A stretch of DNA of 39,569 nt, from positions 1-39,569 of the forward strand of contig NCEV01000036.1 in assembly GCA_002280875.1 (NCBI GenBank), read 5' to 3'. The notes beneath the pieces are model-generated. The model made no database searches, was not told where the DNA came from, and saw only the letters and a list, made by a program, of their open reading frames with translations. Of the stretch, positions 19,850-39,569 are shown piece by piece; the first letter of the stretch is position 1, and the number at the start of each line of letters is the position of its first letter. Both the position numbers and the translations under genes were made by a program. The DNA is from Caulobacter sp. 32-67-35 (GTDB lineage: Bacteria > Pseudomonadota > Alphaproteobacteria > Caulobacterales > Caulobacteraceae).

Positions 19850-20806
19850 ATGACGCAAAAGATCATTTTCGACACCGATCCCGGCATCGACGACGCCATG
19901 GCCCTGCTGTTCATCGAGGCCAGCCCGGCGCTGGACCTGCTGGCCATCACCACGATCTTCGGCAATGCCGACATCGAAACCACCACCCGCAACGCGCTCT
20001 ATCTGAAGCAGCGCTTTGGCCTGTCAGCGCCGGTCTATAAGGGAACCGACAAGCCCCTGACCCGCCCGCGCAACCCCTCGCCCACCTTCGTGCATGGCGA
20101 GAACGGCCTGGGCGATGTGGAACTGACGGGTCTGGTCCCGGCCCAGCCCGAGGCCAAGCCGGCCTATCAGGCGATCATCGACATCGCCCGCCAGCATCCC
20201 GGTGAGGTGACCCTGGTCGCCGTTGGCCCGCTGACCAATCTGGCCCTGGCGCTGAAGGCCGATCCCGAGGTCGCCACCCTGCTGAAGGCCGTGGTGATCA
20301 TGGGCGGCGCGTTCGGCGTGGCCGGCAAGCCGGGCAATGTGACCCCCGTCGCCGAGGCCAATATCTGGAACGATCCGGAAGCCGCTGATCTGGTCTTTAC
20401 CGCGCCGTGGGCCCTGACTGCGGTCAGCCTTGACGTCACCACCCAGGTGGTGATGTCGCCGGCCTATATGGACGCGCTGGAAGCCTCGGCCGGACCGGCT
20501 GGCGCGTTCCTGAACGCGATTTCCAAGCCCTATGCGGCCTTCTACGGCAGCCGCGACGGCGTCAGCGGCTGTTGCGTGCACGACGCGGCGGCGGTGGCGT
20601 TCGTGATCGCCCCGTCGCTCTTTGAGGTGCGTCGCGGGTCGGTGCGGGTGGTGACCGAGGGCATCACCCTGGGCCAGACCTGCCAGAAGGCCGAGGGCGA
20701 ACTGTTTGGCCCCAGCGCCTGGGACGACCAGCCGATCCAGGCGGTGACCGTGGCGGTGGATGAGGCGGGGCTGTTGAAGTTGTATGCGGAGACGATGAGG
20801 GCGTAG
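19850..20806 (+). CDS. Nucleoside hydrolase (IunH/URH family)
   Basis: A 318-residue calcium-dependent N-ribosyl hydrolase releasing a free base and ribose from nucleosides. The diagnostic motif is DTDPGIDDAMAL at residues 8-19, with FGNADIETTTRNAL and the distal metal Asp in CCVHDAAAVAFVI. The preference between purine and pyrimidine nucleosides is not determined by these motifs; the neighbours (guanine deaminase, xanthine dehydrogenase) favour purines. It is the last gene of the hpxXYZ-like operon and is followed by a palindromic repeat that separates it from the convergent guaD. Confidence 0.92.
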   Translation: MTQKIIFDTDPGIDDAMALLFIEASPALDLLAITTIFGNADIETTTRNALYLKQRFGLSAPVYKGTDKPLTRPRNPSPTFVHGENGLGDVELTGLVPAQPEAKPAYQAIIDIARQHPGEVTLVAVGPLTNLALALKADPEVATLLKAVVIMGGAFGVAGKPGNVTPVAEANIWNDPEAADLVFTAPWALTAVSLDVTTQVVMSPAYMDALEASAGPAGAFLNAISKPYAAFYGSRDGVSGCCVHDAAAVAFVIAPSLFEVRRGSVRVVTEGITLGQTCQKAEGELFGPSAWDDQPIQAVTVAVDEAGLLKLYAETMRA

Positions 20807-30255: not shown

Positions 30256-30804
30256 TTAGAGGATGCGCAGGTTGCCGGCCGAGGTCTTGCCCGAGCGACG
30301 GTCCTGTTCCAGTTCGTAACCGACCTGCTGGCCTTCGTTCAGGCCCCGCAGACCGGCGCGCTCAACGGCAGAGATGTGCACGAAGATGTCGCCGCCGCCG
30401 TTGTCGGGCTGGATGAAACCAAAGCCCTTGGTGGTGTTGAACCACTTCACGACGCCCGTGCCGGCTTCGCCGCCACCGCCGCCGCCACCACCGCCGCCGT
30501 AGCCGCCGCCCCGGGGAGCGTCATAGCCGCCGCCGCGCGGGGCGTCGAAGCCGCGGGGAGCCGGGCGACGGGCAGCGGCGGGAGCCGCGCCTTGACCGGT
30601 TACGCGCAGGTTGCCGGCCGAGGTCTTGCCCGAGCGACGATCTTCTTCGAGTTCATAGGCGACCAGGTCGCCTTCGTTCAGGCCCGAAAGGCCCGACCGC
30701 TCAACCGCGGCGATATGGACGAACACGTCCTCGCCGCCGTTTTCGGGCTGGATAAAGCCAAAGCCCTTGGCCGGGTTGAACCACTTAACGACACCGTTCG
30801 CCAT
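30256..30804 (-). CDS. Cold-shock protein with two CSD domains
   Basis: A 182-residue nucleic-acid-binding protein of two cold-shock domains. CSD1 is residues 1-68 ([17 protein letters not shown], then [10 protein letters not shown]) and CSD2 is 116-182 ([17 protein letters not shown], then [10 protein letters not shown]). Both carry the RNP1 and RNP2 aromatic residues. They are joined by a linker of about 47 residues rich in Arg/Pro and Gly, with duplicated [18 protein letters not shown] and a run of ten glycines. Double-CSD proteins of this layout are known in Caulobacter as CspC and CspD, the former linked to stationary phase; I cannot say which this is. The start has GAGGATAAG upstream. 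Confidence 0.95.
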
Positions 30805-31279: not shown

Positions 31280-32599
31280 TCAGGCGAGCGCATCCGCAGC
31301 GTTGACCGTCGGGGCGGACGCCGAGGATGTCGGACGACGACGCAGGAAATATAGGCCCGCCAGGATCGTGCAGACAGCGCCGACGATGCTGGTGGCATAG
31401 ACGCTGGCGATGAAGAAGCCGAGCCAGTCCAGGTTGACCATCGCGAAGTTGCGCCAGAGCAGCAGGGCGACGCTGCCCAGATAGCCAGAGGCGTCGGCAA
31501 CATAGATCAGGAAACCCGCCGTGCCGACCTGACCGCTGAAGGCGATCATGCGGTCAAACAGCATGGCGTTGAAGGGCGTGTAGGCCATGTAGAGGCCAGC
31601 GCCGGTCAGGATCATCCAGGTCAGCGGCGTCAGCAGATCAGCCTGGAAGGCCAGGGTCGACAGGCCCAGCAACAGGAAGCCGGCCAGGATGACGCCGTGC
31701 ATCACCAGAAGCGCCCGCAGATTGTCGCGCACCAGCATGACCGCGCCCATTACCGCCAGGGCGACTGCGGCGACCGGCAGTTCGCTGGTGGTGAAGACGC
31801 CAGAGGCCTCGCCGAAGCCCAGGGCGATCCAGATCTCGGCGGCGAAATTATCCCGGAAGTCCCGCAGGGCGGTCAGCAACACATAGGCCATCACCAGCAG
31901 CACGACGCCCGGCGCATAGGCGGCCAGAAAGGCGCGGCGCCGGGCGCGGTCCATTGGCTGGCGACGCACGCGCGCGGCTTCGTCGGCGAGGCTGGGCGGC
32001 GGCAGCTGGACCAGGGCCCAGACCGAGAAGGCCAGCAGCGGCAGAAACAGCGCGCCGGTGGCGGCCGGCATCCAGAACGGCGAGACGTCCAGATCGACCA
32101 TCAGCCACTTTCCGACCGATTTGACGACGCCCGACGACAGGATGAAGCTGGCGCAGAGGATGGCGCCCAGCACCTCGGACGTGCGCCGCCCCTCCATGAA
32201 GCCGAACACCAGCCCCCAGATCATGCCCAGGGGCAGGCCGTTCAGCACCAGGGCCACGACATTCCAGGGCGCGGGAACGACGGCGAAGGCCAGCAGGGCC
32301 AGCCAGGACATACCGATCAAGCCCAGGATGGCCACGCCGCGATGGGCCGGCGCAATCTCGGAAATGACCTTGACCCCGATCAGCTTTGAGGCGGCGTAGC
32401 CGGCGACCTGGGCCAGCACGAGGGCGATCTTATAGTCGATGGCGAAGGTCCAGCCCTCGACCTCGCCGAAGGTCGCCGCCGCGAACGGCTTGCGGAAAGC
32501 GTACATCGAGAAATAGGCGCAAAAGCCGGCCAGGCCCGCGAACAGGGTGAAGACCAGAGGATTGGCTCGCTCCAGCCAGAGCCGCGGACCTGAACTCAT
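31280..32599 (-). CDS. DUF5690 family membrane transporter, MFS-like
   Basis: A 439-residue integral membrane protein with about 12 hydrophobic helices and an Arg/Lys-rich central loop near residue 210 (RVRRQPMDRARRRAF), the layout of a major facilitator. The N-terminus TLFAGLAGFCAYFSMYAFRKPFAAATF is typical of DUF5690 and resembles the start of organophosphate/phosphate antiporters (GlpT/UhpT type). The substrate is unknown. A copy of the TTTGGTCTATACCA operator lies 21 bases upstream of the ATG at 32599. The same sequence lies before the HD-oxygenase gene, so import of that enzyme's substrate, perhaps a phosphonate, is a reasonable inference. It follows the GntR gene on the same strand. Confidence 0.8.
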   Translation of the reverse strand: MSSGPRLWLERANPLVFTLFAGLAGFCAYFSMYAFRKPFAAATFGEVEGWTFAIDYKIALVLAQVAGYAASKLIGVKVISEIAPAHRGVAILGLIGMSWLALLAFAVVPAPWNVVALVLNGLPLGMIWGLVFGFMEGRRTSEVLGAILCASFILSSGVVKSVGKWLMVDLDVSPFWMPAATGALFLPLLAFSVWALVQLPPPSLADEAARVRRQPMDRARRRAFLAAYAPGVVLLVMAYVLLTALRDFRDNFAAEIWIALGFGEASGVFTTSELPVAAVALAVMGAVMLVRDNLRALLVMHGVILAGFLLLGLSTLAFQADLLTPLTWMILTGAGLYMAYTPFNAMLFDRMIAFSGQVGTAGFLIYVADASGYLGSVALLLWRNFAMVNLDWLGFFIASVYATSIVGAVCTILAGLYFLRRRPTSSASAPTVNAADALA

Positions 32600-32620
32600 C
32601 GAAACGCCCCTTTTGAGGCC

Positions 32621-32634
32621 TTTGGTCTATACCA
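32621..32634. promoter_or_regulatory. GntR-type operator, copy 1
   Basis: TTTGGTCTATACCA, a TGGT-N4-ACCA near-palindrome of the GntTAnAC kind bound by HutC/UTRA-class GntR proteins. It sits between the GntR gene and the permease start codon. An identical 14-mer occurs at 33584-33597. Confidence 0.7.
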
Positions 32635-32718
32635 CTCGCATGGCGTTTCGATGACGTGGAAGGGATACCGAAAAGTGGCGCTTCACAGCCTTGGGCGCCC
32701 AGCGACAGGCGCGTGATT

Positions 32719-33438
32719 TCAGCGGACGCGGATGTCGACGCTGATCTTCAGGGCGTCGTGGCGCCAGTATTCGCGGTCGAACTCGACCACGCGTCCCTGG
32801 GCGTCATAGCACGTGCGCTCGACGCTCAATCCGGGCAGACCCGACTTCACCCGAAGGGCTTCGGCCTCGCCGCGCGTCAGGGCGCAGGGCCGCATGTCGA
32901 CCTTGTTGCGCGCAACACCGATCCCATAGACCGACTTCAGGACGCTGGTCAGCGAGCCATCCAGATCGTGCTCTATCAGGCCCGGCGCCAGGGAGGCGTC
33001 GACCACGATGCTCTCGATCAACACGGCCCGGTCGTCGATCGATCGCCGGCGGCGGATCCAGTACAGCGGTGCGCCGATGGGGCGGGAAAAGATCTGGCTC
33101 AGCATGGCGTCGCAGGTGATCACGGTCTTGCTCAGCGTCTCGGTCGCCGGCCGCCGGCCCTGCGCTTCGACATACGACATGAAGCCTTCCCAGCGCGTCG
33201 GATCATAGACCACAGGCGGGGGAGAGACATACCAGCCGCTGCGATTGCGGCGATAGACCAGGCCCTCGGCCTCAAGCTGGAAAAGCGCCTCGCGGATCGT
33301 GCCACGCGCCACCCCGCCGCCGACCTGTAGCTGACGTTCCGACGGCAGACGTTCGCCGGCCTTCAGTTCCCCACTGTCGATCCGATCGGCAATGTCGTTG
33401 CGAACTCCAAGATAGTGGAGGTGATCTGGCTGCTGCAT
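32719..33438 (-). CDS. GntR-family regulator with UTRA domain (HutC subfamily)
   Basis: A 239-residue transcription factor. The winged helix-turn-helix is at about residues 8-75: YLGVRNDIADRI, GERLPSERQLQ, ARGTIREALFQLEAEGLVYRR. The UTRA effector domain follows at about 90-235, with IESIVVDASLAPGL and EFDREYWRHDALKISVDI. Proteins of this subfamily near phosphonate genes are known as PhnR/PhnF-like. The start is placed at ATG 33438, since the upstream extension to 33534 is not family-like. It is divergent from the HD-oxygenase gene and upstream of the permease, with an identical operator before each. Confidence 0.9.
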   Translation of the reverse strand: MQQPDHLHYLGVRNDIADRIDSGELKAGERLPSERQLQVGGGVARGTIREALFQLEAEGLVYRRNRSGWYVSPPPVVYDPTRWEGFMSYVEAQGRRPATETLSKTVITCDAMLSQIFSRPIGAPLYWIRRRRSIDDRAVLIESIVVDASLAPGLIEHDLDGSLTSVLKSVYGIGVARNKVDMRPCALTRGEAEALRVKSGLPGLSVERTCYDAQGRVVEFDREYWRHDALKISVDIRVR

Positions 33439-33583
33439 CGTGGGGACCTGTCGGCGGTCAGAGCGCCGCTTTGCGCGAGGATGGGAGTGCGCTACGCCAA
33501 GGTCAAGAAACGGGATCCGAGCCCTGGCGAGCAATGTGGACAGGATGAGCGCGTCACGAAAGATTCGCGCAGCGATAGCTTAT

Positions 33584-33597
33584 TTTGGTCTATACCA
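33584..33597. promoter_or_regulatory. GntR-type operator, copy 2
   Basis: TTTGGTCTATACCA, identical in all 14 bases to the copy before the permease, 66 bases upstream of the HD-oxygenase ATG. It lies in an AT-richer stretch (about 33575-33612) likely to hold the promoter. Confidence 0.7.
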
Positions 33598-33663
33598 GTA
33601 ATCCCAATTTTAAACCCTGCCCGCGCTTGCCGGCGCGAACAGGGCAGTGATCCCGGATTGTCT

Positions 33664-34245
33664 ATGATCTCTCAGCCTGCGGCCGACGCTTTCGTGGCCG
33701 AACTTGTCGATCTCTTCGCCCGACTGGGCGACCTCCGGTACGGAGAGGATGTCAGCCAGCTGGAGCACGCGCTGCAGACGGCCCATCACGCCAGGGTCGA
33801 TGACGCGCCGCCCGCCCTGATCGTCGCCGCCCTGCTGCATGATATCGGCCACCTGATGCAGAAGACCGGGGAGAACGCCGCGGACCTGGGCATCGACACC
33901 CGCCACGAGCATATTGGTGGCGGCTATCTGGCCCGGGCGTTCGGCCCAGACGTGACCGAGCCCATCCGCCTGCACGTGGCGGCCAAGCGCTACCGGGTGG
34001 CTGTGGACCCCGCCTATTTCGAGCGCCTCAGCGCGGCGTCATTGCAGAGTCTGGCGCTGCAGGGCGGCCCGATGAGTCCGGACGAGATCACTGCGTTCCT
34101 GGCCGAGCCAGCGGCGCAGGACGCCCTTCGACTGCGCGGTTATGACGAGGCTGGCAAGGCCCCCGACGCGGACGTGGCTGGCCTTGACGCCTATCATGAC
34201 CTGCTTCGCGATCAGATTTATCGCGCGGGCCGGCTGTCGGCCTGA
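33664..34245 (+). CDS. PhnZ-like HD-domain mixed-valent diiron oxygenase
   Basis: A 193-residue HD-domain protein. It aligns by eye with PhnZ, which oxidatively cleaves 2-amino-1-hydroxyethylphosphonate to glycine and phosphate. The diiron ligands are in place: His 35 (SQLEHALQTA), His 59 and Asp 60 (LLHDIGHL), His 83 (HEHIGGGYL), His 104 (LHVAAKRY) and Asp 161 (RGYDEAGK). The substrate-side Lys 108 and the LALQGGPMS block are also present. PhnZ, as I recall it, has Tyr-x-x-Glu in its N-terminal lid; here it is Tyr 26-Gly-Glu 28, one residue shorter, so the substrate may differ. The start ATG 33664 fits family length but lacks a good Shine-Dalgarno. No PhnY* or TmpA partner is in the window. 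An identical operator links it to the permease. Confidence 0.85.
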   Translation: MISQPAADAFVAELVDLFARLGDLRYGEDVSQLEHALQTAHHARVDDAPPALIVAALLHDIGHLMQKTGENAADLGIDTRHEHIGGGYLARAFGPDVTEPIRLHVAAKRYRVAVDPAYFERLSAASLQSLALQGGPMSPDEITAFLAEPAAQDALRLRGYDEAGKAPDADVAGLDAYHDLLRDQIYRAGRLSA

Positions 34246-34263: not shown

Positions 34264-35214
34264 CTAGGGCGCCGCCTCATCCGAGACCAGGTGCTGCAAA
34301 ACGCGCTTTTCCAGCACCAGCAGCGCGCTGGCCTGGTTGGTGCGCATGATCAGACCCGTCGCCAGCGCCTTGGCGGCCTGATGGACGGCCTGGGCCAGAC
34401 GCAGGAATTCGGGCCGCCCTCGCCCCCCGGTCCCATGCAGCGCGCAGAGCTGGCGCCAGTCCTGCACGAAACTGTCCAGCACGCCGTCGAAACGCGCGGC
34501 GCGCTCATAGGCTTCGGCGGTCTCGACGGCGACCGCCAGTTCGGCGCGCAGGTCGTCGATCAGCCCCTGCACCTCGGCGGCGGGCATGATGGGCGCGCGC
34601 TGATCGGCCTCCGTGAGAAGTTGCGGACGGGCCTTGGGATCCCAGACGATGGTCCGCCACTGATCGCGTGGCGGCGCCTGCCCGCAGGCGAAGCGCCAGA
34701 ACGCCGCTGTGCCTGTCGTGTCGGCGACCAGATGGATACGGTCGGCGCTGGCCCTGTTCTCCACATGGTGGCGCCGCCAGTTGTCGAAGATCCAGGCCTC
34801 GCCTGCGCCCATGTGCACGGCCTGGCCGTCGCAGTGAAAGCGCACTTCGGGCCGGGTGAAGACCGGGATGTGAAGCCGCACCCGCGTATGCCAGTGATAG
34901 TTGATGTCGGCATGCTCGGGCACGCCCACGCCCGGCGCCAGGCGCATCAGCCGCGAGCGGCTCCAGACCACGCCAAAGCCCGCCAGGGCCTGGCGAAGAT
35001 AGGGCATGGCCTCAAGCCAGGGCGTCGGCAGCATCTGTCCGTGCACGGAATCGGTCTCGCGCCCGCCGGCGCTGATCAGGCGGGCGGCGCTGTTGCCGGG
35101 CACGCCGTCCGGGTGCGCCACCCAGGCCTCGGGCGGCAGGGCCGCGACCTCGGCCTGCAGACACGCCACGTCGAACAGTACGGGGAGCTGGAAAAAGGGC
35201 TGTGACAGTCGCAT
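34264..35214 (-). CDS. Aspartyl/asparaginyl beta-hydroxylase-fold Fe(II)/2-oxoglutarate oxygenase (1)
   Basis: A 316-residue protein. The beta-hydroxylase domain (about residues 40-190) has the Fe ligand motif HADINYHWH (His 101, Asp 103) and the distal His in WRRHHVENRASADRIHLVAD with a 2-oxoglutarate-type Arg 159. The GVGVPEHADINYHWHTRVR block is typical of the PF05118 family. A C-terminal helical part of about 110 residues has no domain I recognise. The substrate is unknown. It lies three bases after the TPR-sulfotransferase stop, last in the minus-strand cassette, and converges with the HD-oxygenase gene. Hydroxylation of a protein or small molecule before sulfation is possible. Confidence 0.85.
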   Translation of the reverse strand: MRLSQPFFQLPVLFDVACLQAEVAALPPEAWVAHPDGVPGNSAARLISAGGRETDSVHGQMLPTPWLEAMPYLRQALAGFGVVWSRSRLMRLAPGVGVPEHADINYHWHTRVRLHIPVFTRPEVRFHCDGQAVHMGAGEAWIFDNWRRHHVENRASADRIHLVADTTGTAAFWRFACGQAPPRDQWRTIVWDPKARPQLLTEADQRAPIMPAAEVQGLIDDLRAELAVAVETAEAYERAARFDGVLDSFVQDWRQLCALHGTGGRGRPEFLRLAQAVHQAAKALATGLIMRTNQASALLVLEKRVLQHLVSDEAAP

Positions 35215-35217
35215 CGT

Positions 35218-37125
35218 TCAGTCCCTGTAGCCGGTCAGGGCATCGCCAAGAGCGTCGTGCAGCGGCGCAAGCCAGGGCGCGTAGTGACGCCACTGGGTGA
35301 GACCCTCGCGGCCGATGGGCTGGCGCACCTGTTCGGAACTGGGCGTGCGCACACTGCGCCGGGTCTGGTGGAACGCCAGGCAGGCCGGCTCGAAAGCCAG
35401 ACCGGAATGGCGGAGCATACGCCGCACGCCGCCTTCAAGGTCGTCGACCAGATCCTCGTAGGGCGCCCTCAGCACCCTCCCCGGCAGCACCTCGTCCCAG
35501 TGCCGCATCAGATCCAGATAGGTGCGATAGTGGCGGGCGATGTCGTCGACGCCATAGGTGAATTCCTGATTGGCGGAGCCAAACAGCTGCTTGAGATTGC
35601 CGAAGCAGCAGGCCATCGGCTCGCGTCGCACATCGATGATTGTCGCTCTCGGCAGCATCAGGTGGATCAGGCCGATATGCCAGAAATTGTTGGGCATCTT
35701 GTCGATGAAGAACGGCCGGCCAAGCCTGCGATAGGTGAGCGTCTCGGCCAGAAAGCGCTCGCCCAGCGCCCGCGCGTCGGCGGCCGTCAGTCTCAGCATG
35801 GCCTCGGGGTCGAGCGGCAGGCCGCAATCGGGATCGCGACCGCAGAGCTCGCCGGCGTAGCGGCCGATCTCGGTCAATTCCTGCGTGCCCTCCACGCTGG
35901 AATGCGAGGCCAGGATCTGCTCGATCAGGGTGGAGCCCGAGCGCGGCAGGCCCAGGATGAAGATCGGGGCCGGATCCTCCAGTCCCCAGCCGGCCCGGGC
36001 GGCGAAGACCTCGGCGGTGAAGACCTGCTTCAGCCGGACGGCGCAGGCCTCCGCGACCTCCGGGCGATAGCGGCTGGAGGCGCGCCGCACGGCATTGCCG
36101 CGCTCGTAATATGACCACGAGGTCTTGTAGTCGCCCTGGTCCTCCAGCGCCTTGCCCAGGGCGAAACACAGATAGACGCGATCCATGTCCTGAAGGATGG
36201 GCTGGGCCTCCGCGGCGCGCATCCGCGCGATGTCGTCGTCGGTGAAGCGATAGGTCTTGAGGTTGGCCAGGCTGAACCAGGCCACGCCGTAGTCCGGCCG
36301 CGCCGTCAGGGCGGCGTGATAGTCGGCGATGGCCTCGGCCTGCCGGCCCGTGATCTTCAGGGCGTTGGCCCGCCACAGGCGCAGGTCGGCGACCTCGGCC
36401 CCGGACTGAGCAGTATCGGCCAGCAGCCGCTGATAGAGATCGACCACCGGCTCATGGTCACCCAGCCCGACACAGGCTGCGGCGTAGTGTTTGAGATAGT
36501 CGCGGTTGACCGGGTCGTGCTCGAGCAGTCGCTCAGCCTGCTGCCGAGCCTGAAGGTGCTTCTGCTGCTGCAACAGCAGCATGGCGTAATCGAAGCGGGC
36601 CGCGTGGTAGTCCGGCGCGCGCTCAAGCACCGACTTCAGCAAGGCCTCGGCCTCGTCCGGCGCATCCTGCATCTGGCGTATCCGCGCCAGCAGGCGCTGG
36701 GCGCCGACATTGTCGCCGTCCTTGCGCAGATAATCCCGAAGCCCCTTCTCGGCCGGCGACAGGTCGCCATCGGCCAGCAGGCTGTTGGCCGCCACAATCT
36801 CCGGCGGCAATTGCTTGAGCACGGCCAGCCGCCGCCCCGCCTCGGACGCCTGAACGGTGTCGCCCGTCATACGGTGAAGCTGTTCCAGCATGTCCCAGCT
36901 GGCCGGCAGGGTCGGATTGAGGCTCACCGCCTCGCCCAGGGCCCGGATCGCCGCCGGCCCCTCGCCCAACAGGATATGGCAGTGACCGCGCTCCTGATGC
37001 AGGCGGCTGAACTGCGGATGCAGCGCCTGCAATCGCGCCAGGACGTTCAGCGCCTCCGCCGGCCGTTGCTCCGCACGCAGGGCCATCGCCTCACGCAACA
37101 GCGTGTCGCGATCATGGGTAGTCAT
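35218..37125 (-). CDS. TPR-repeat sulfotransferase
   Basis: A 635-residue fusion. The N-terminal half (about residues 1-350) is tetratricopeptide repeats, for example PAEALNVLARLQALHPQ and DEAEALLKSVLERAPDYHAARFDYA. The C-terminal half is a PAPS-dependent sulfotransferase: the 5'-phosphosulfate loop IFILGLPRSGSTLIEQIL has PRSGST at 394-399, and the region IIDVRREPMACCFGNLKQLF corresponds to the 3'-phosphate binding segment. The TPR part probably recognises a protein or peptide partner. No signal peptide is seen. The ATG overlaps the stop of the upstream beta-hydroxylase gene (ATGA) and the downstream beta-hydroxylase is three bases away, so it is sandwiched between two oxygenases. Confidence 0.92.
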   Translation of the reverse strand: MTTHDRDTLLREAMALRAEQRPAEALNVLARLQALHPQFSRLHQERGHCHILLGEGPAAIRALGEAVSLNPTLPASWDMLEQLHRMTGDTVQASEAGRRLAVLKQLPPEIVAANSLLADGDLSPAEKGLRDYLRKDGDNVGAQRLLARIRQMQDAPDEAEALLKSVLERAPDYHAARFDYAMLLLQQQKHLQARQQAERLLEHDPVNRDYLKHYAAACVGLGDHEPVVDLYQRLLADTAQSGAEVADLRLWRANALKITGRQAEAIADYHAALTARPDYGVAWFSLANLKTYRFTDDDIARMRAAEAQPILQDMDRVYLCFALGKALEDQGDYKTSWSYYERGNAVRRASSRYRPEVAEACAVRLKQVFTAEVFAARAGWGLEDPAPIFILGLPRSGSTLIEQILASHSSVEGTQELTEIGRYAGELCGRDPDCGLPLDPEAMLRLTAADARALGERFLAETLTYRRLGRPFFIDKMPNNFWHIGLIHLMLPRATIIDVRREPMACCFGNLKQLFGSANQEFTYGVDDIARHYRTYLDLMRHWDEVLPGRVLRAPYEDLVDDLEGGVRRMLRHSGLAFEPACLAFHQTRRSVRTPSSEQVRQPIGREGLTQWRHYAPWLAPLHDALGDALTGYRD

Positions 37126-37751
37126 CGCGCCAGGCCCGCCCCCAGGAATGGCTCCAGCCAGTCCGGATCCGGCTGATCGGCATCGTAATATTCGAAGATC
37201 AGATGCACGCGGTCAGTATCGCCGTTGTTGCGCACCCAGTGCGGGCCCAGATTGTCGACCTCCACCGCTTCGCCCGGTGGGAAATGGTGCTCCTCGCCCC
37301 CGAAGAACGACACCACCCCGGGATTGGTCGACAGTGGCACATGGATCTTGTGCGGCCACTTGGCTGCGGGGTTGGCGTCGATATGAGGGTGGATCACCCC
37401 GCCCGGCGGCATTCTCGCCAGCATCACGCGCGGGAATACGCCGCGCGCATAGCCGTAGGCGCGGACGGCCTGGGCCAACACAGGCTCAAGAAGGCCGCGC
37501 CACGCCGGCCAGCCCGCGCGATCGTGCGAGGCGCGCCAGTCGCGGGGGTTGTCGATGAAGCGAAAAACGATGTGGCGCGTCGCGTCCAGCACCTCGAAAC
37601 GGTTGGGCTTGCCGGCGTTCTCGGCGTTCCAGACCGTCTCGGGGATCGCCGCCACAGCCGTCTGCAGAGCCGAGACCTCGACCGCACCCAGCTTGCGGAT
37701 GCCGGTAGTCTTGCGCGGATTGGCGGCGGGGCTGAAGACGGCGTCGCTCAT
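37122..37751 (-). CDS. Aspartyl/asparaginyl beta-hydroxylase-fold Fe(II)/2-oxoglutarate oxygenase (2)
   Basis: A 209-residue compact member of the family. The Fe ligands fall in GGVIHPHIDANPAAKWPHKIH (His 121 or His 123, Asp 125) and His 171 in LGPHWVRNNGDTDRVHLIFEYYD, with Arg 181 for 2-oxoglutarate. It lacks the extra C-terminal helical part of the other copy, so they are paralogous rather than a recent duplicate. It overlaps both neighbours by four bases (ATGA), the small sulfotransferase before it and the TPR-sulfotransferase after it, showing a tight operon. Substrate unknown. Confidence 0.9.
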   Translation of the reverse strand: MSDAVFSPAANPRKTTGIRKLGAVEVSALQTAVAAIPETVWNAENAGKPNRFEVLDATRHIVFRFIDNPRDWRASHDRAGWPAWRGLLEPVLAQAVRAYGYARGVFPRVMLARMPPGGVIHPHIDANPAAKWPHKIHVPLSTNPGVVSFFGGEEHHFPPGEAVEVDNLGPHWVRNNGDTDRVHLIFEYYDADQPDPDWLEPFLGAGLAR

Positions 37752-38398
37752 CTGAGGCCTTCAAAGGTGTAGCCGAACAGATCCAGGTCCTGGGCGTAGC
37801 GTCTGGTGACGCCATCGATCAGGGCCTGATCGTAGTAGCGACGATAGTCGCCATGTCGGCTGCCATTGACCCGGTCCAGCGGACGGGAGGGAATGCCGAG
37901 ACGCGCGCAGATCGCCTCATACGAGCCCTGCATGTCCTCGACGCGCCCCACGCCGTCGGTCAACAGGGTCTGGCCGTCCTCGTCGACCAGCAGCGAGGCC
38001 TGAGGCTGGAACAGGATGTGCTGCTCCGGCGGTTCGGCGAACAGAAAATGGCGCATCGCCTCGCGCGGCTGCTGCTGGAAGACCTCGCCGCCGCGCAGCA
38101 TGAAGGCGCAGTAGGAGACAAAGCGGTCGAACGGATTGCGCACGAAGGCAAACTTGAAATAGCCGCTGAAGGCCTCTTCGCCGAGGTAGGGACGCACCTG
38201 CCGCAGGGACAGGTGACCATGTCGGATCGCCGCCAGTTCCTCCCACGGGAAGCGCTTGTCGACGAACAGGCCCACCTGCTCAACGTCTTCTTCGCCGAGC
38301 TGTTCACGCAGGGCCTGACGCACGGCATGCGTGCCGGTCTTGGGCACGGCCGCGAAGATGAACCGGTGGCGATGGGAAACGATCATGTTTCGGGACAC
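37748..38398 (-). CDS. Sulfotransferase family 2 protein
   Basis: A 216-residue PAPS-dependent sulfotransferase of the Sulfotransfer_2 type. Near the N-terminus FIFAAVPKTGTHAVRQAL gives the 5'-phosphosulfate loop, and FKFAFVRNPFDRFVSYCAF gives the 3'-phosphate binding Arg and Ser region. There is no transmembrane anchor, unlike Golgi homologues. The start is GTG 38398 or ATG 38386; GTG is kept because the purine-rich GGAGGGGG upstream could act for it, although that sequence is also one arm of the preceding terminator. It is the first gene of the four-gene hydroxylase/sulfotransferase cassette. Confidence 0.88.
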   Translation of the reverse strand: MSRNMIVSHRHRFIFAAVPKTGTHAVRQALREQLGEEDVEQVGLFVDKRFPWEELAAIRHGHLSLRQVRPYLGEEAFSGYFKFAFVRNPFDRFVSYCAFMLRGGEVFQQQPREAMRHFLFAEPPEQHILFQPQASLLVDEDGQTLLTDGVGRVEDMQGSYEAICARLGIPSRPLDRVNGSRHGDYRRYYDQALIDGVTRRYAQDLDLFGYTFEGLR

Positions 38399-38402
38399 AC
38401 GG

Positions 38403-38431
38403 AAAAGCGCCCCCTCCTGAGGAGGGGGCGC
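38403..38431 (-). terminator. Rho-independent terminator of the second TonB receptor gene
   Basis: A perfect 11-bp GC stem (38407-38417 with 38421-38431, GCGCCCCCTCC on the plus strand) has a TGA loop and is followed by TTTT on the minus strand. It lies just after the receptor stop codon and its last bases are five from the sulfotransferase GTG. Confidence 0.85.
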
Positions 38432-38451
38432 GGTCTGGACATAGGGTCGTC

Positions 38452-39569
38452 CTAGAACTTGTAGCTGAGCCCGACCATGTAGGTCGCGCCGCTCTGGTTC
38501 TGGTTATAGAGATAGCGGTTCTGGCCCCAGAACTGCGTATCCTCCTGGTTGGTCAGGTTGATCGCGTCCAAGGACAGCTGCAGTCCATCGGCAATGTTGA
38601 AGAAGGCCGCTGCGTCGATATAGGTGCCGCCCTCGAAGCCCCGCGTGCTGGCGCTCATGACGGAGTCGTTGACGCCACTGTACCAGCGCGCGCGATGGCT
38701 CAGCGAACCCCGTACGCCCCAGCGGCTGGTTTCATAGTAGAGCGTGGCGTTGTAGCTGGTCTTGGACACGCCGGTGAGCGCCTCCTCGGCGTCCACATAG
38801 GTATAGTTGGCCACCGCGCCGATGTTGTCGAACGGCGCCGGCAGGAACGAGAACTGGGTCTGCGCCGCCAGTTCCACGCCGGTCAGGCGGTTGGAGCCTT
38901 CCACATTGATCGGCATCGAGAACTCGGAAACGATGGTGTCAGCCGTCGCGCCGGGGATGGTCGTGAACGGAACCCCCGTCTGGCTGAAGGGGACGTTCTC
39001 AAGCGTCTGCGAGCCGATATAGTTGGTGATCTTCTTCTGGAAGACGCTGGCCGACAGCAGGCCGACCTCGCCGAAGTAGTATTCCACCGCCAGGTCGAGG
39101 GTGGTGTCCTTGTAGGGCTTGAGGTTGGGATTGCCGCGCGAGGCGGTGATCTCGCCAGAGTCGGAGTCCTGGAACGCCGAGCCCTCGGCCGCCATCGAGC
39201 CCAGGCCCGGACGGTTCAGGTTCTTGGTGGCCGAGAAGCGCACCAGCAGGTCCGGGGCCAGTTCCAGCACCGTGTTCAGGGCCGGCAGCACGCCCGAATA
39301 GCTGCCTTCAACATCCGTCGTGCCCAGATAGGCGTAGCTGTCGCCCTGGATCCAGCCGGTGCTGTGGGTGTCGGTCTGGTAGCCGCGCAGGCCGATATTG
39401 CCGCGGAAGCGCTTGCCGGCCAGTTCGCTGTCCCAGTCCATCTGGACATATTCGGAGATCGTTTCCTCCGTGGTCTCATAGACGTTCTCGATGTCCTGGA
39501 GCGCGCCGCCGGTGCCGTCCGTGTTGGGTCCGAAGCGGTGGTACTCGTTGTACTTCTTGAAGGCCTTGT
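38452..39569 (-). CDS. TonB-dependent receptor, 5'-truncated by window edge
   Basis: The C-terminal 372 residues of a TonB-dependent outer-membrane receptor. The frame is open through base 39569, so the N-terminal plug lies outside; the first methionine at 39441 is internal. Barrel features include VRFSATKNLNRPGLGSMAAEG, NPNLKPYKDTTLDLAVEYYFGE and LSLDAINLTNQEDTQFWGQ, and the protein ends YMVGLSYKF with the terminal Phe needed for barrel assembly. It resembles the Xanthomonas/Caulobacter receptor class. It lies upstream of the hydroxylase/sulfotransferase cassette on the same strand, but a strong terminator separates them. Receptors of this class often adjoin genes for handling their ligand; ligand unknown. 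Confidence 0.93.
   Translation of the reverse strand, partial: KAFKKYNEYHRFGPNTDGTGGALQDIENVYETTEETISEYVQMDWDSELAGKRFRGNIGLRGYQTDTHSTGWIQGDSYAYLGTTDVEGSYSGVLPALNTVLELAPDLLVRFSATKNLNRPGLGSMAAEGSAFQDSDSGEITASRGNPNLKPYKDTTLDLAVEYYFGEVGLLSASVFQKKITNYIGSQTLENVPFSQTGVPFTTIPGATADTIVSEFSMPINVEGSNRLTGVELAAQTQFSFLPAPFDNIGAVANYTYVDAEEALTGVSKTSYNATLYYETSRWGVRGSLSHRARWYSGVNDSVMSASTRGFEGGTYIDAAAFFNIADGLQLSLDAINLTNQEDTQFWGQNRYLYNQNQSGATYMVGLSYKF

Follow-up and report, generated by a model that had tools for sequence, protein, structure and literature searches.

Carriers of phosphonates other than ATP-binding cassette (ABC) transporters are few; the available part of a 2023 review names AepP, a putative sodium symporter, GltT, and GltP (PMC10574752). 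AepP of Pseudomonas putida BIRD-1 is a carrier of the major facilitator superfamily (MFS) which, in the accessible portions of two papers, is proposed for the import of 2-aminoethylphosphonate (AEP) and is tied to phosphonate catabolism (PMC8316502, PMC10574752). The present analysis concerns a stretch of 39,569 nucleotides from Caulobacter sp. 32-67-35 (contig NCEV01000036.1; the whole stretch is hereafter the window), in which a gene for a membrane protein of the family DUF5690 (PF18943) lies near genes for a GntR/UTRA regulator and an HD-domain oxygenase. Very probably, this locus is an inducible regulon for the use of natural aminoethylphosphonates as a phosphorus source, with DUF5690 as its inner-membrane permease, and DUF5690 is probably a family of aminophosphonate permeases.

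The available descriptions present AepP as a recognizable GlpT relative, with a reported identity of 27.75% (PMC8316502, PMC10574752), whereas DUF5690 lacks a PDB chain match at E ≤ 10, falls below the MFS_1 cut-off, and matches GlpT, UhpT, and UhpC weakly; AepP is set apart here by description only. On the catabolic side, an Achromobacter operon of HpnW (TIGR03364) and PhnX with PhnHD is similar in having a TIGR03364 oxidase, a phosphonatase, and an HD protein of the TIGR03276 clade but no PhnW; however, its regulator is of the LysR type, in contrast to the GntR/UTRA protein and palindromic operators of the window, and the available text of that account does not mention DUF5690 (PMC11203657). 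The phnRSTUVWX cluster of Salmonella, as outlined in the same partly available source, likewise places a PhnR-type regulator beside genes for AEP uptake and degradation, but its transporter is phnSTUV rather than DUF5690, and the regulator of the window falls below the PhnR equivalog cut-off (PMC11203657). Finally, the TmpA/TmpB and PhnY*/PhnZ pairs share with the window the HD diiron ligands H...HD...H...H...D, to judge from the accessible text, but the window genome lacks TmpA and its HD loop, Y-G-E, is one residue shorter (PMC8177086). A literature search found no paper naming DUF5690 or PF18943, although most subscription journals and supplements lay outside it, so that this does not establish that none has been published.

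The features that concern us first are the following:

31280..32599, minus strand: DUF5690 (PF18943), predicted MFS-fold permease, 439 amino acids (Pfam, AlphaFold2 model, and PDB fold matches)
32621..32634, no strand: predicted operator 1, TTTGGTCTATACCA; core 32623-32634 palindromic, 24 bp before the DUF5690 start codon
32640..32656, minus strand: Pho-box-like tandem repeat CGTCAT-N5-CGCCAT with an 11-bp period, directly upstream of operator 1
32719..33438, minus strand: GntR/UTRA (HutC-subfamily) regulator, PhnR-like, 239 amino acids (Pfam and NCBIfam)
33584..33597, no strand: predicted operator 2, TTTGGTCTATACCA, in the divergent stretch between the regulator and HD genes
33664..34245, plus strand: HD-domain diiron oxygenase of the PhnZ/TmpB/PhnHD kind, 193 amino acids, with a shortened Y-G-E loop (TIGR03276, PDB matches, and ligands)

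From the sequence, the conserved neighbourhood, the operators, the co-occurrence, and the fold, all computed here, we infer the direction and substrate of transport, the binding of the repressor, control by PhoB, and the substrate of the HD protein. DUF5690, whose MFS fold would be like that of the organophosphate:phosphate antiporters (OPA), would import AEP and its N-methyl or hydroxy relatives. A PhnR-like GntR/UTRA repressor would occupy the palindrome TGGTMTAKACCA, both over the -10 region of the permease gene and in the promoter of the regulator and HD genes, and would depart once a phosphonate or a breakdown product fills its UTRA domain; under phosphate starvation, PhoB would also activate through the Pho-box-like repeat. 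PbfD and PhnX, encoded on a contig that probably abuts the window (C95), would convert AEP and N-methyl-AEP to phosphonoacetaldehyde and then to phosphate, and the HD oxygenase would cleave alpha-hydroxylated aminoethylphosphonates. A family without an assigned function in two phyla would thereby gain a substrate class, a regulator, an operator, and partner enzymes, all of them directly testable, and DUF5690 could help to spot phosphonate users in genomes.

Gene neighbourhoods and co-occurrence

Neighbourhoods were compared in the 80 closest of 230 DUF5690 relatives in a genome collection (loci numbered L), a sample that favours close kin and to that extent weakens the case. Marker genes were counted by tblastn, excluding matches with less than 40% query coverage or below the score limits, and representative neighbour proteins were named by NCBIfam and Pfam. 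A phosphonate catabolic gene (PbfD, PhnX, HD, TmpA, PhnY, PhnA, or PhnW) lies within 10 kb of DUF5690 in 67 of the 80 loci. The counts are 51 for PbfD, 46 for PhnX, 32 for HD, 8 for TmpA, 7 for PhnY (one of which, in L025, has an identity of just 37% and could represent a different aldehyde dehydrogenase), 6 each for PhnA and PhnW, and 17 for phospholipase C (PLC). Four of the 13 loci without a phosphonate marker are cut by contig ends (L027, L042, L047, and L053); others have long flanks on both sides.

PbfD is found within 500 bp of DUF5690 in 42 of its 51 loci, and TmpA is immediately downstream on the same strand in 8/8. In other lineages, TmpA, PhnW/PhnY/PhnA, or phnX-phnW take the place of PbfD and PhnX. 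PbfD enzymes oxidize N-methyl-AEP and AEP to phosphonoacetaldehyde, according to the available part of PMC10590968, and PbfD1 is annotated as TIGR03364. The preliminary description of the window had proposed the HD oxygenase as the partner of the permease and had staked this on their co-occurrence in other genomes. They do co-occur (32/80 loci), but the HD protein is not the commonest neighbour, being outnumbered by PbfD and PhnX, and as the main partner, it was rejected (32 loci versus 51 for PbfD).

The same association appears when whole genomes are compared. Among the window's genome and 60 relatives, DUF5690 occurs in 24; PbfD is above its cut-off in 17 and PhnX in the identical 17, all of which have DUF5690, and neither enzyme is found in the 37 genomes that lack DUF5690 (p = 6e-10, without correction for kinship). 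Phn-HD matches above 100 bits, none of which reaches the curated cut-off, occur in 13 of these genomes, again all with DUF5690. In a phylum-wide draw (genomes numbered G), DUF5690 is sparse (10/398), and a phosphonate gene lies beside it in five of the ten (G000, G406, G149, G446, and G042). In G149 and G446, which belong to one family outside the class, DUF5690 has a phosphonatase-like hydrolase and a TIGR03364 oxidase on its own strand; both oxidases are over the cut-off, whereas the G149 hydrolase scores 208.8 on TIGR03351, below the cut-off of 218.9.

A plasmid collection yielded four DUF5690 records. Novosphingobium has the order DUF5690-TIGR03364-phnX, together with a UTRA regulator 63% identical to that of the window and the site TGGTCCATACCA, which lies 84 bp ahead of the annotated DUF5690 start. 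The annotation gives DUF5690-phnX-phnW in Bacteroides finegoldii and Parabacteroides distasonis, and tblastn gives the same order in an unannotated Phocaeicola record, where PhnX is over the cut-off; the order is thus present in 3/3 Bacteroidota records, whose DUF5690 proteins are 32-37% identical to that of the window. Bacteroidota with DUF5690 include gut commensals, and this family points to AEP use there through an unrecognized carrier. One 45-kb Bacteroides 'plasmid' record (L147, 1-585) contains a glycine--tRNA ligase gene and other housekeeping genes and may be a piece of chromosome. Elsewhere in the sample, 13 of the 80 loci have a PF12831 FAD oxidoreductase near DUF5690 and 14 have an MFS_1 transporter (e.g., L014, L055, and L073); the two may be another phosphonate-linked pair.

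Regulator, operators, and promoter

The regulator has UTRA (114 bits) and GntR (65 bits) domains above the Pfam cut-offs, in agreement with its first assignment to the GntR/UTRA proteins. Its best NCBIfam match is TIGR03337 (PhnR), at 243.1 bits against a cut-off of 296.75, and because this score is below the curated cut-off, the protein is PhnR-like by sequence yet, on this criterion, not a member of PhnR. HutC itself was ruled out (84 bits; cut-off, 220).

The 14-mer TTTGGTCTATACCA is exact twice in the window, at 32621-32634, between the GntR and DUF5690 genes, and at 33584-33597, and both this repeat and the gene order (DUF5690, GntR/UTRA, then HD on the opposite strand) are as the preliminary description had them. 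Only one further window match with up to three mismatches exists, with three, at 20389 (100 shuffled controls: mean, 0.35; maximum, 2). The site TGGTCTATACCA, a predicted operator, fits the HutC-subfamily consensus NyGTMTAKACNy, as given in the available text of PMC4494728, and the proposed fit to this pattern held. A literature search for TGGTATAGACCA as a printed site returned one paper, which was unrelated.

One way to account for the two palindromes would be a chance repeat or sites for another GntR protein. Indeed, the palindrome TGGTNTANACCA occurs at three places in the 4.1-Mb genome, as does its reversed control, and this lack of any excess counts against a regulatory site; the third place, which was set aside, is inside a gene that we take to be ctaB-like. 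However, the position of the site is conserved, and in 22 loci the site goes together with this GntR gene, which makes chance hardly credible. A relative of the window GntR gene is present in 22/80 loci (hereafter GntR+). When other genomes were searched, as had been suggested, the 22 GntR+ loci (413 kb) contained 39 exact TGGTMTAKACCA sites and the 58 GntR- loci (902 kb) contained 2; 30 shuffles of either set gave none. In the two GntR- exceptions (L047 and L063), the site immediately precedes DUF5690 and a contig end is close by. L044 and L065 are GntR- in the marker count, where the PDE14 marker overlaps the GntR match, and GntR+ in the operator counts.

Position was examined in 26 GntR+ records, made up of the 22 loci plus the window and three more genome stretches; these records and their promoters are related rather than independent, and L115 duplicates L008, being the same contig stretch. 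A site precedes DUF5690 in all 26 with at most one mismatch and in 24 exactly, and the distance to the start codon, extrapolated from the window protein, is 24-26 bp. Upstream of the GntR genes, the site is exact in 19/26 and has at most one mismatch in 25/26. Exact operators also lie upstream of PbfD (10/22), HD (9/24), and TonB (1/11) genes, and an operator is upstream of PLC genes in 13/18, whereas none was found within 350 bp upstream of the operon-internal genes PhnX (0/21) and TPR-sulfotransferase (0/12). The operator signal is therefore one of conservation and position, not of genome-wide count.

The PLC gene complicates the pairing of permease and HD oxygenase: in many Caulobacter-type loci, PLC rather than HD is directly behind operator 2, which speaks against the proposed arrangement, and the HD gene is farther from the operator wherever PLC intervenes. 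The gene for this phosphocholine-specific enzyme (TIGR03396) lies 7-16 bp behind operator 2, upstream of HD, in 13 of the 18 cases (L005, L010, and relatives), and the enzyme could release phosphonolipid headgroups.

The Pho box has the consensus TGTCAT-N5-TGTCAT. In 23 related DUF5690 promoters, GTCA is invariant at a fixed distance from the operator, and the second half follows 11 bp on; the mean best score against the consensus is 8.6/12, compared with 5.6 after shuffling. In the Novosphingobium DUF5690 promoter, TGTCAC occupies the equivalent place. These features suggest that the repeat upstream of operator 1 is a Pho box, which PhoB would bind. Either TATAGA, at the centre of operator 1, or CTAGAC, inside the operator, may be the -10 region. 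With a -10 region inside the operator and a Pho box adjacent to it, activation would come from PhoB and repression from GntR. A search of 32560-33720 gave neither a sigma-70-type promoter nor a terminator. Operator 1 is flanked by the arms of a 12-bp inverted repeat, CATCGAAACGCC, at 32597-32653, whose pairing could cover the start codon; the repeat was found in none of the relatives (0/21).

Fold and cargo of the DUF5690 family

The window protein matches Pfam DUF5690 at 531 bits (cut-off, 25) over model positions 1-382 of 382. Its AlphaFold2 model (pLDDT, 87; pTM, 0.86) has a predicted MFS fold, and the top PDB fold matches are glucose-6-phosphate transporters, such as human G6PT/SLC37A4. 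By sequence, the kinship is more distant: MFS_1 scores 15.6 bits, under its cut-off of 33.4, phmmer and profile searches of the PDB sequences gave no matches at E ≤ 10, and an NCBIfam scan of eight DUF5690 proteins gave nothing useful. Two results in this comparison tell against an OPA-like carrier, namely, that the sugar-acid transporter DgoT equals G6PT in Z and that the DUF5690 profile matches E. coli GlpT, UhpT, and UhpC at a probability of only 11%.

In the organophosphate:phosphate antiporters (GlpT, UhpT, and G6PT), an Arg-Lys pair in transmembrane helix (TM) 1, a Lys in TM2, and an Arg in TM7 bind the phosphate moiety. R36-K37, K72, and R246 are invariant across 106 DUF5690 sequences, and hhalign pairs the TM1 R-K and the TM2 Lys of DUF5690 with their GlpT counterparts, at the same probability of just 11%. 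Alignment A1 took in 60 of the 80 loci, minus six with in-frame stops (L022, L039, L048, L055, L067, and L070), and L142 duplicates L081, their rows being identical. Y132, N341, and I343 occur together in 8/8 TmpA-linked DUF5690 proteins and in 0/96 others, with L038 and L046 set aside; these two belong to the TmpA-linked clade yet have PbfD and PhnX, and their residues are F132, S341, and I343. The confinement of the substitutions to one clade, as one event with a partial return, weakens them as evidence, and positions 132, 341, and 343 are suggestive only as a sequence hint to cargo.

A different role for such a protein would be that of a transporter-like sensor of phosphonates rather than a carrier, on the model of UhpC, a GlpT relative of the OPA type whose annotation is that of a glucose-6-phosphate sensor. 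This is very unlikely: no histidine kinase is among the annotated recurring neighbour families (about ten of 32), the one sensor kinase seen is beside copies of a second branch (L132 and L141), a one-component regulator, GntR, already serves the regulon, and apart from DUF5690 the sole recurrent permease among those annotated is MFS11, found in 14/80 loci.

A weightier alternative is that DUF5690 is a broader carrier of small phosphorylated or C2-amine compounds (phosphoethanolamine, glycerophospho-compounds, and ethanolamine), for which phosphonates are one use of several. Among its grounds are the copies without phosphonate neighbours, and these weigh against the role proposed here. No phosphonate marker is present in the stretch read in 27 of 102 tree rows (the 75 rows with phosphonate genes include that of the window, counted by name rather than by marker search). 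Of these, a second branch, mostly of Caulobacter, contributes 10 of its 11 rows and a Maricaulis/Aquidulcibacter branch all four; the rest are L126, L127, and 11 scattered rows, some of them cut by contig ends. Likewise, PbfD and PhnX both fail to reach the cut-off in 7 of the 24 genomes with DUF5690, and five of the ten copies of the phylum-wide draw lack a marker beside them (G038, G186, G206, G345, and G360). In L035 (10001-13465), DUF5690 is followed directly on the same strand by the ethanolamine ammonia-lyase EutB and one more gene, which suggests a C2-amine cargo in that lineage, and in L126, it is beside a GlpR-like DeoR regulator. Some copies may thus carry other substrates. The closeness of the fold to G6PT, a sugar-phosphate carrier, and the phosphocholine-specific PLC in 17/80 loci fit the broader carrier too. 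On the other hand, the phosphonate genes are found in most loci (67/80) and in a second phylum, and the partner swaps stay among phosphonate routes, so that we regard the broader carrier as unlikely and prefer an aminophosphonate permease.

Other neighbours of the marker-less groups include uroporphyrinogen methyltransferase with molybdopterin oxidoreductase (L133), LptF/LptG (L129), an M28 peptidase (L079), a sensor kinase (L132), and NhaA. In the second Caulobacter branch (L132-L138 and L141), which has no phosphonate neighbours, some copies are beside NhaA and some beside the methyltransferase and molybdopterin oxidoreductase.

A fuller proposal joins these strands, tentatively and with more doubt than confidence as a whole. 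DUF5690 would be an unnamed family of aminophosphonate permeases in the Pseudomonadota and Bacteroidota, in which F/Y132, T/N341, and F/I343 would set AEP-like versus trimethylated cargo; the Caulobacter/Brevundimonas regulon, with its phospholipase C and a short-loop HD protein that would need no hydroxylase, would strip AEP and hydroxy-AEP headgroups off phosphonolipids.

The HD-domain oxygenase and the end of the window

The HD protein had been called PhnZ-like at the outset, and this description stands: TIGR03276 (Phn-HD/PhnHD) gives 210.1 bits, slightly under its cut-off of 214.6, and the best PDB matches are TmpB (6npa) and PhnZ (4n71). The window protein has all six diiron ligands intact, as do 36 of 37 aligned rows, the exception being a fragment (L071); it also keeps the lysine of HVAAKRY and QGGPM. 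The substrate loop YxxE, which the available text of PMC8177086 gives as a feature of PhnZ and TmpB, is instead shortened by one residue, to Y-G-E, in the window protein and 27 other HD sequences. TmpA is in none of the loci of these 28 rows, whereas it is in four of the six loci whose HD row has Y-x-G-E or a close form; L025 and L140 belong to neither loop class. Identity with TmpB was rejected (NF049941, 161.4 bits against a cut-off of 300; no TmpA; shortened loop).

TmpA is over its cut-off in 0/61 genomes, that of the window included, while PhnY*-type hydroxylases were not searched for. Since the short-loop HD proteins have no TmpA in their loci and TmpA is absent genome-wide, the likely substrate is a ready-made hydroxy-phosphonate such as R-hydroxy-AEP (R-HAEP). 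A substrate of this type was proposed for the Achromobacter PhnHD, as stated in the accessible part of PMC11203657. Another possibility is that the HD protein acts after a PhnY/TmpA-like alpha-hydroxylase encoded elsewhere in the genome, as in the PhnY*-PhnZ pathway. Two Asp_Arg_Hydrox proteins nearby might provide such an activity, but the absence of TmpA from the 61 genomes and from the 28 short-loop loci makes this pathway somewhat unlikely, and a ready-made substrate is favoured.

Beyond the HD gene, the window contains:

34264..38398, minus strand: two Asp_Arg_Hydrox proteins, a TPR-sulfotransferase, and a sulfotransferase (Pfam); probable genes of the TonB-receptor operon, with an uncertain role in the regulon
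38452..39567, minus strand: 3' part of a TonB-dependent receptor gene, cut by the contig end; the 5' part begins contig C95 (L131)

The window ends with residues 564-934 and C95 starts with residues 1-562 of a 934-amino-acid TonB receptor that is intact in L004. Because these parts complement each other, the two contigs probably abut, although the assembly itself does not join them. C95 holds the PbfD and PhnX genes of this genome, with pbfD-phnX divergent from the receptor gene and TGGTCTGTACCA 106 bp before PbfD. The preliminary reading is thus supported in the main and open to extension, since the regulon probably continues beyond the window end.

The TonB receptor, the two Asp_Arg_Hydrox proteins, and both sulfotransferases probably form an operon (window 34264-39567 and L131 2-1657). 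TPR-sulfotransferases occur in 25 of the 80 DUF5690 loci, often alongside TonB receptors, and we know of no link between them and phosphonates. After pbfD-phnX on C95 comes a type I phosphodiesterase-like gene (L131 3990-4958), a relative of which occurs close to HD in certain loci of the Brevundimonas type. Elsewhere in the window, the open reading frame list includes a cold-shock-like protein at 30256-30804, with two similar halves joined through a glycine-rich linker.
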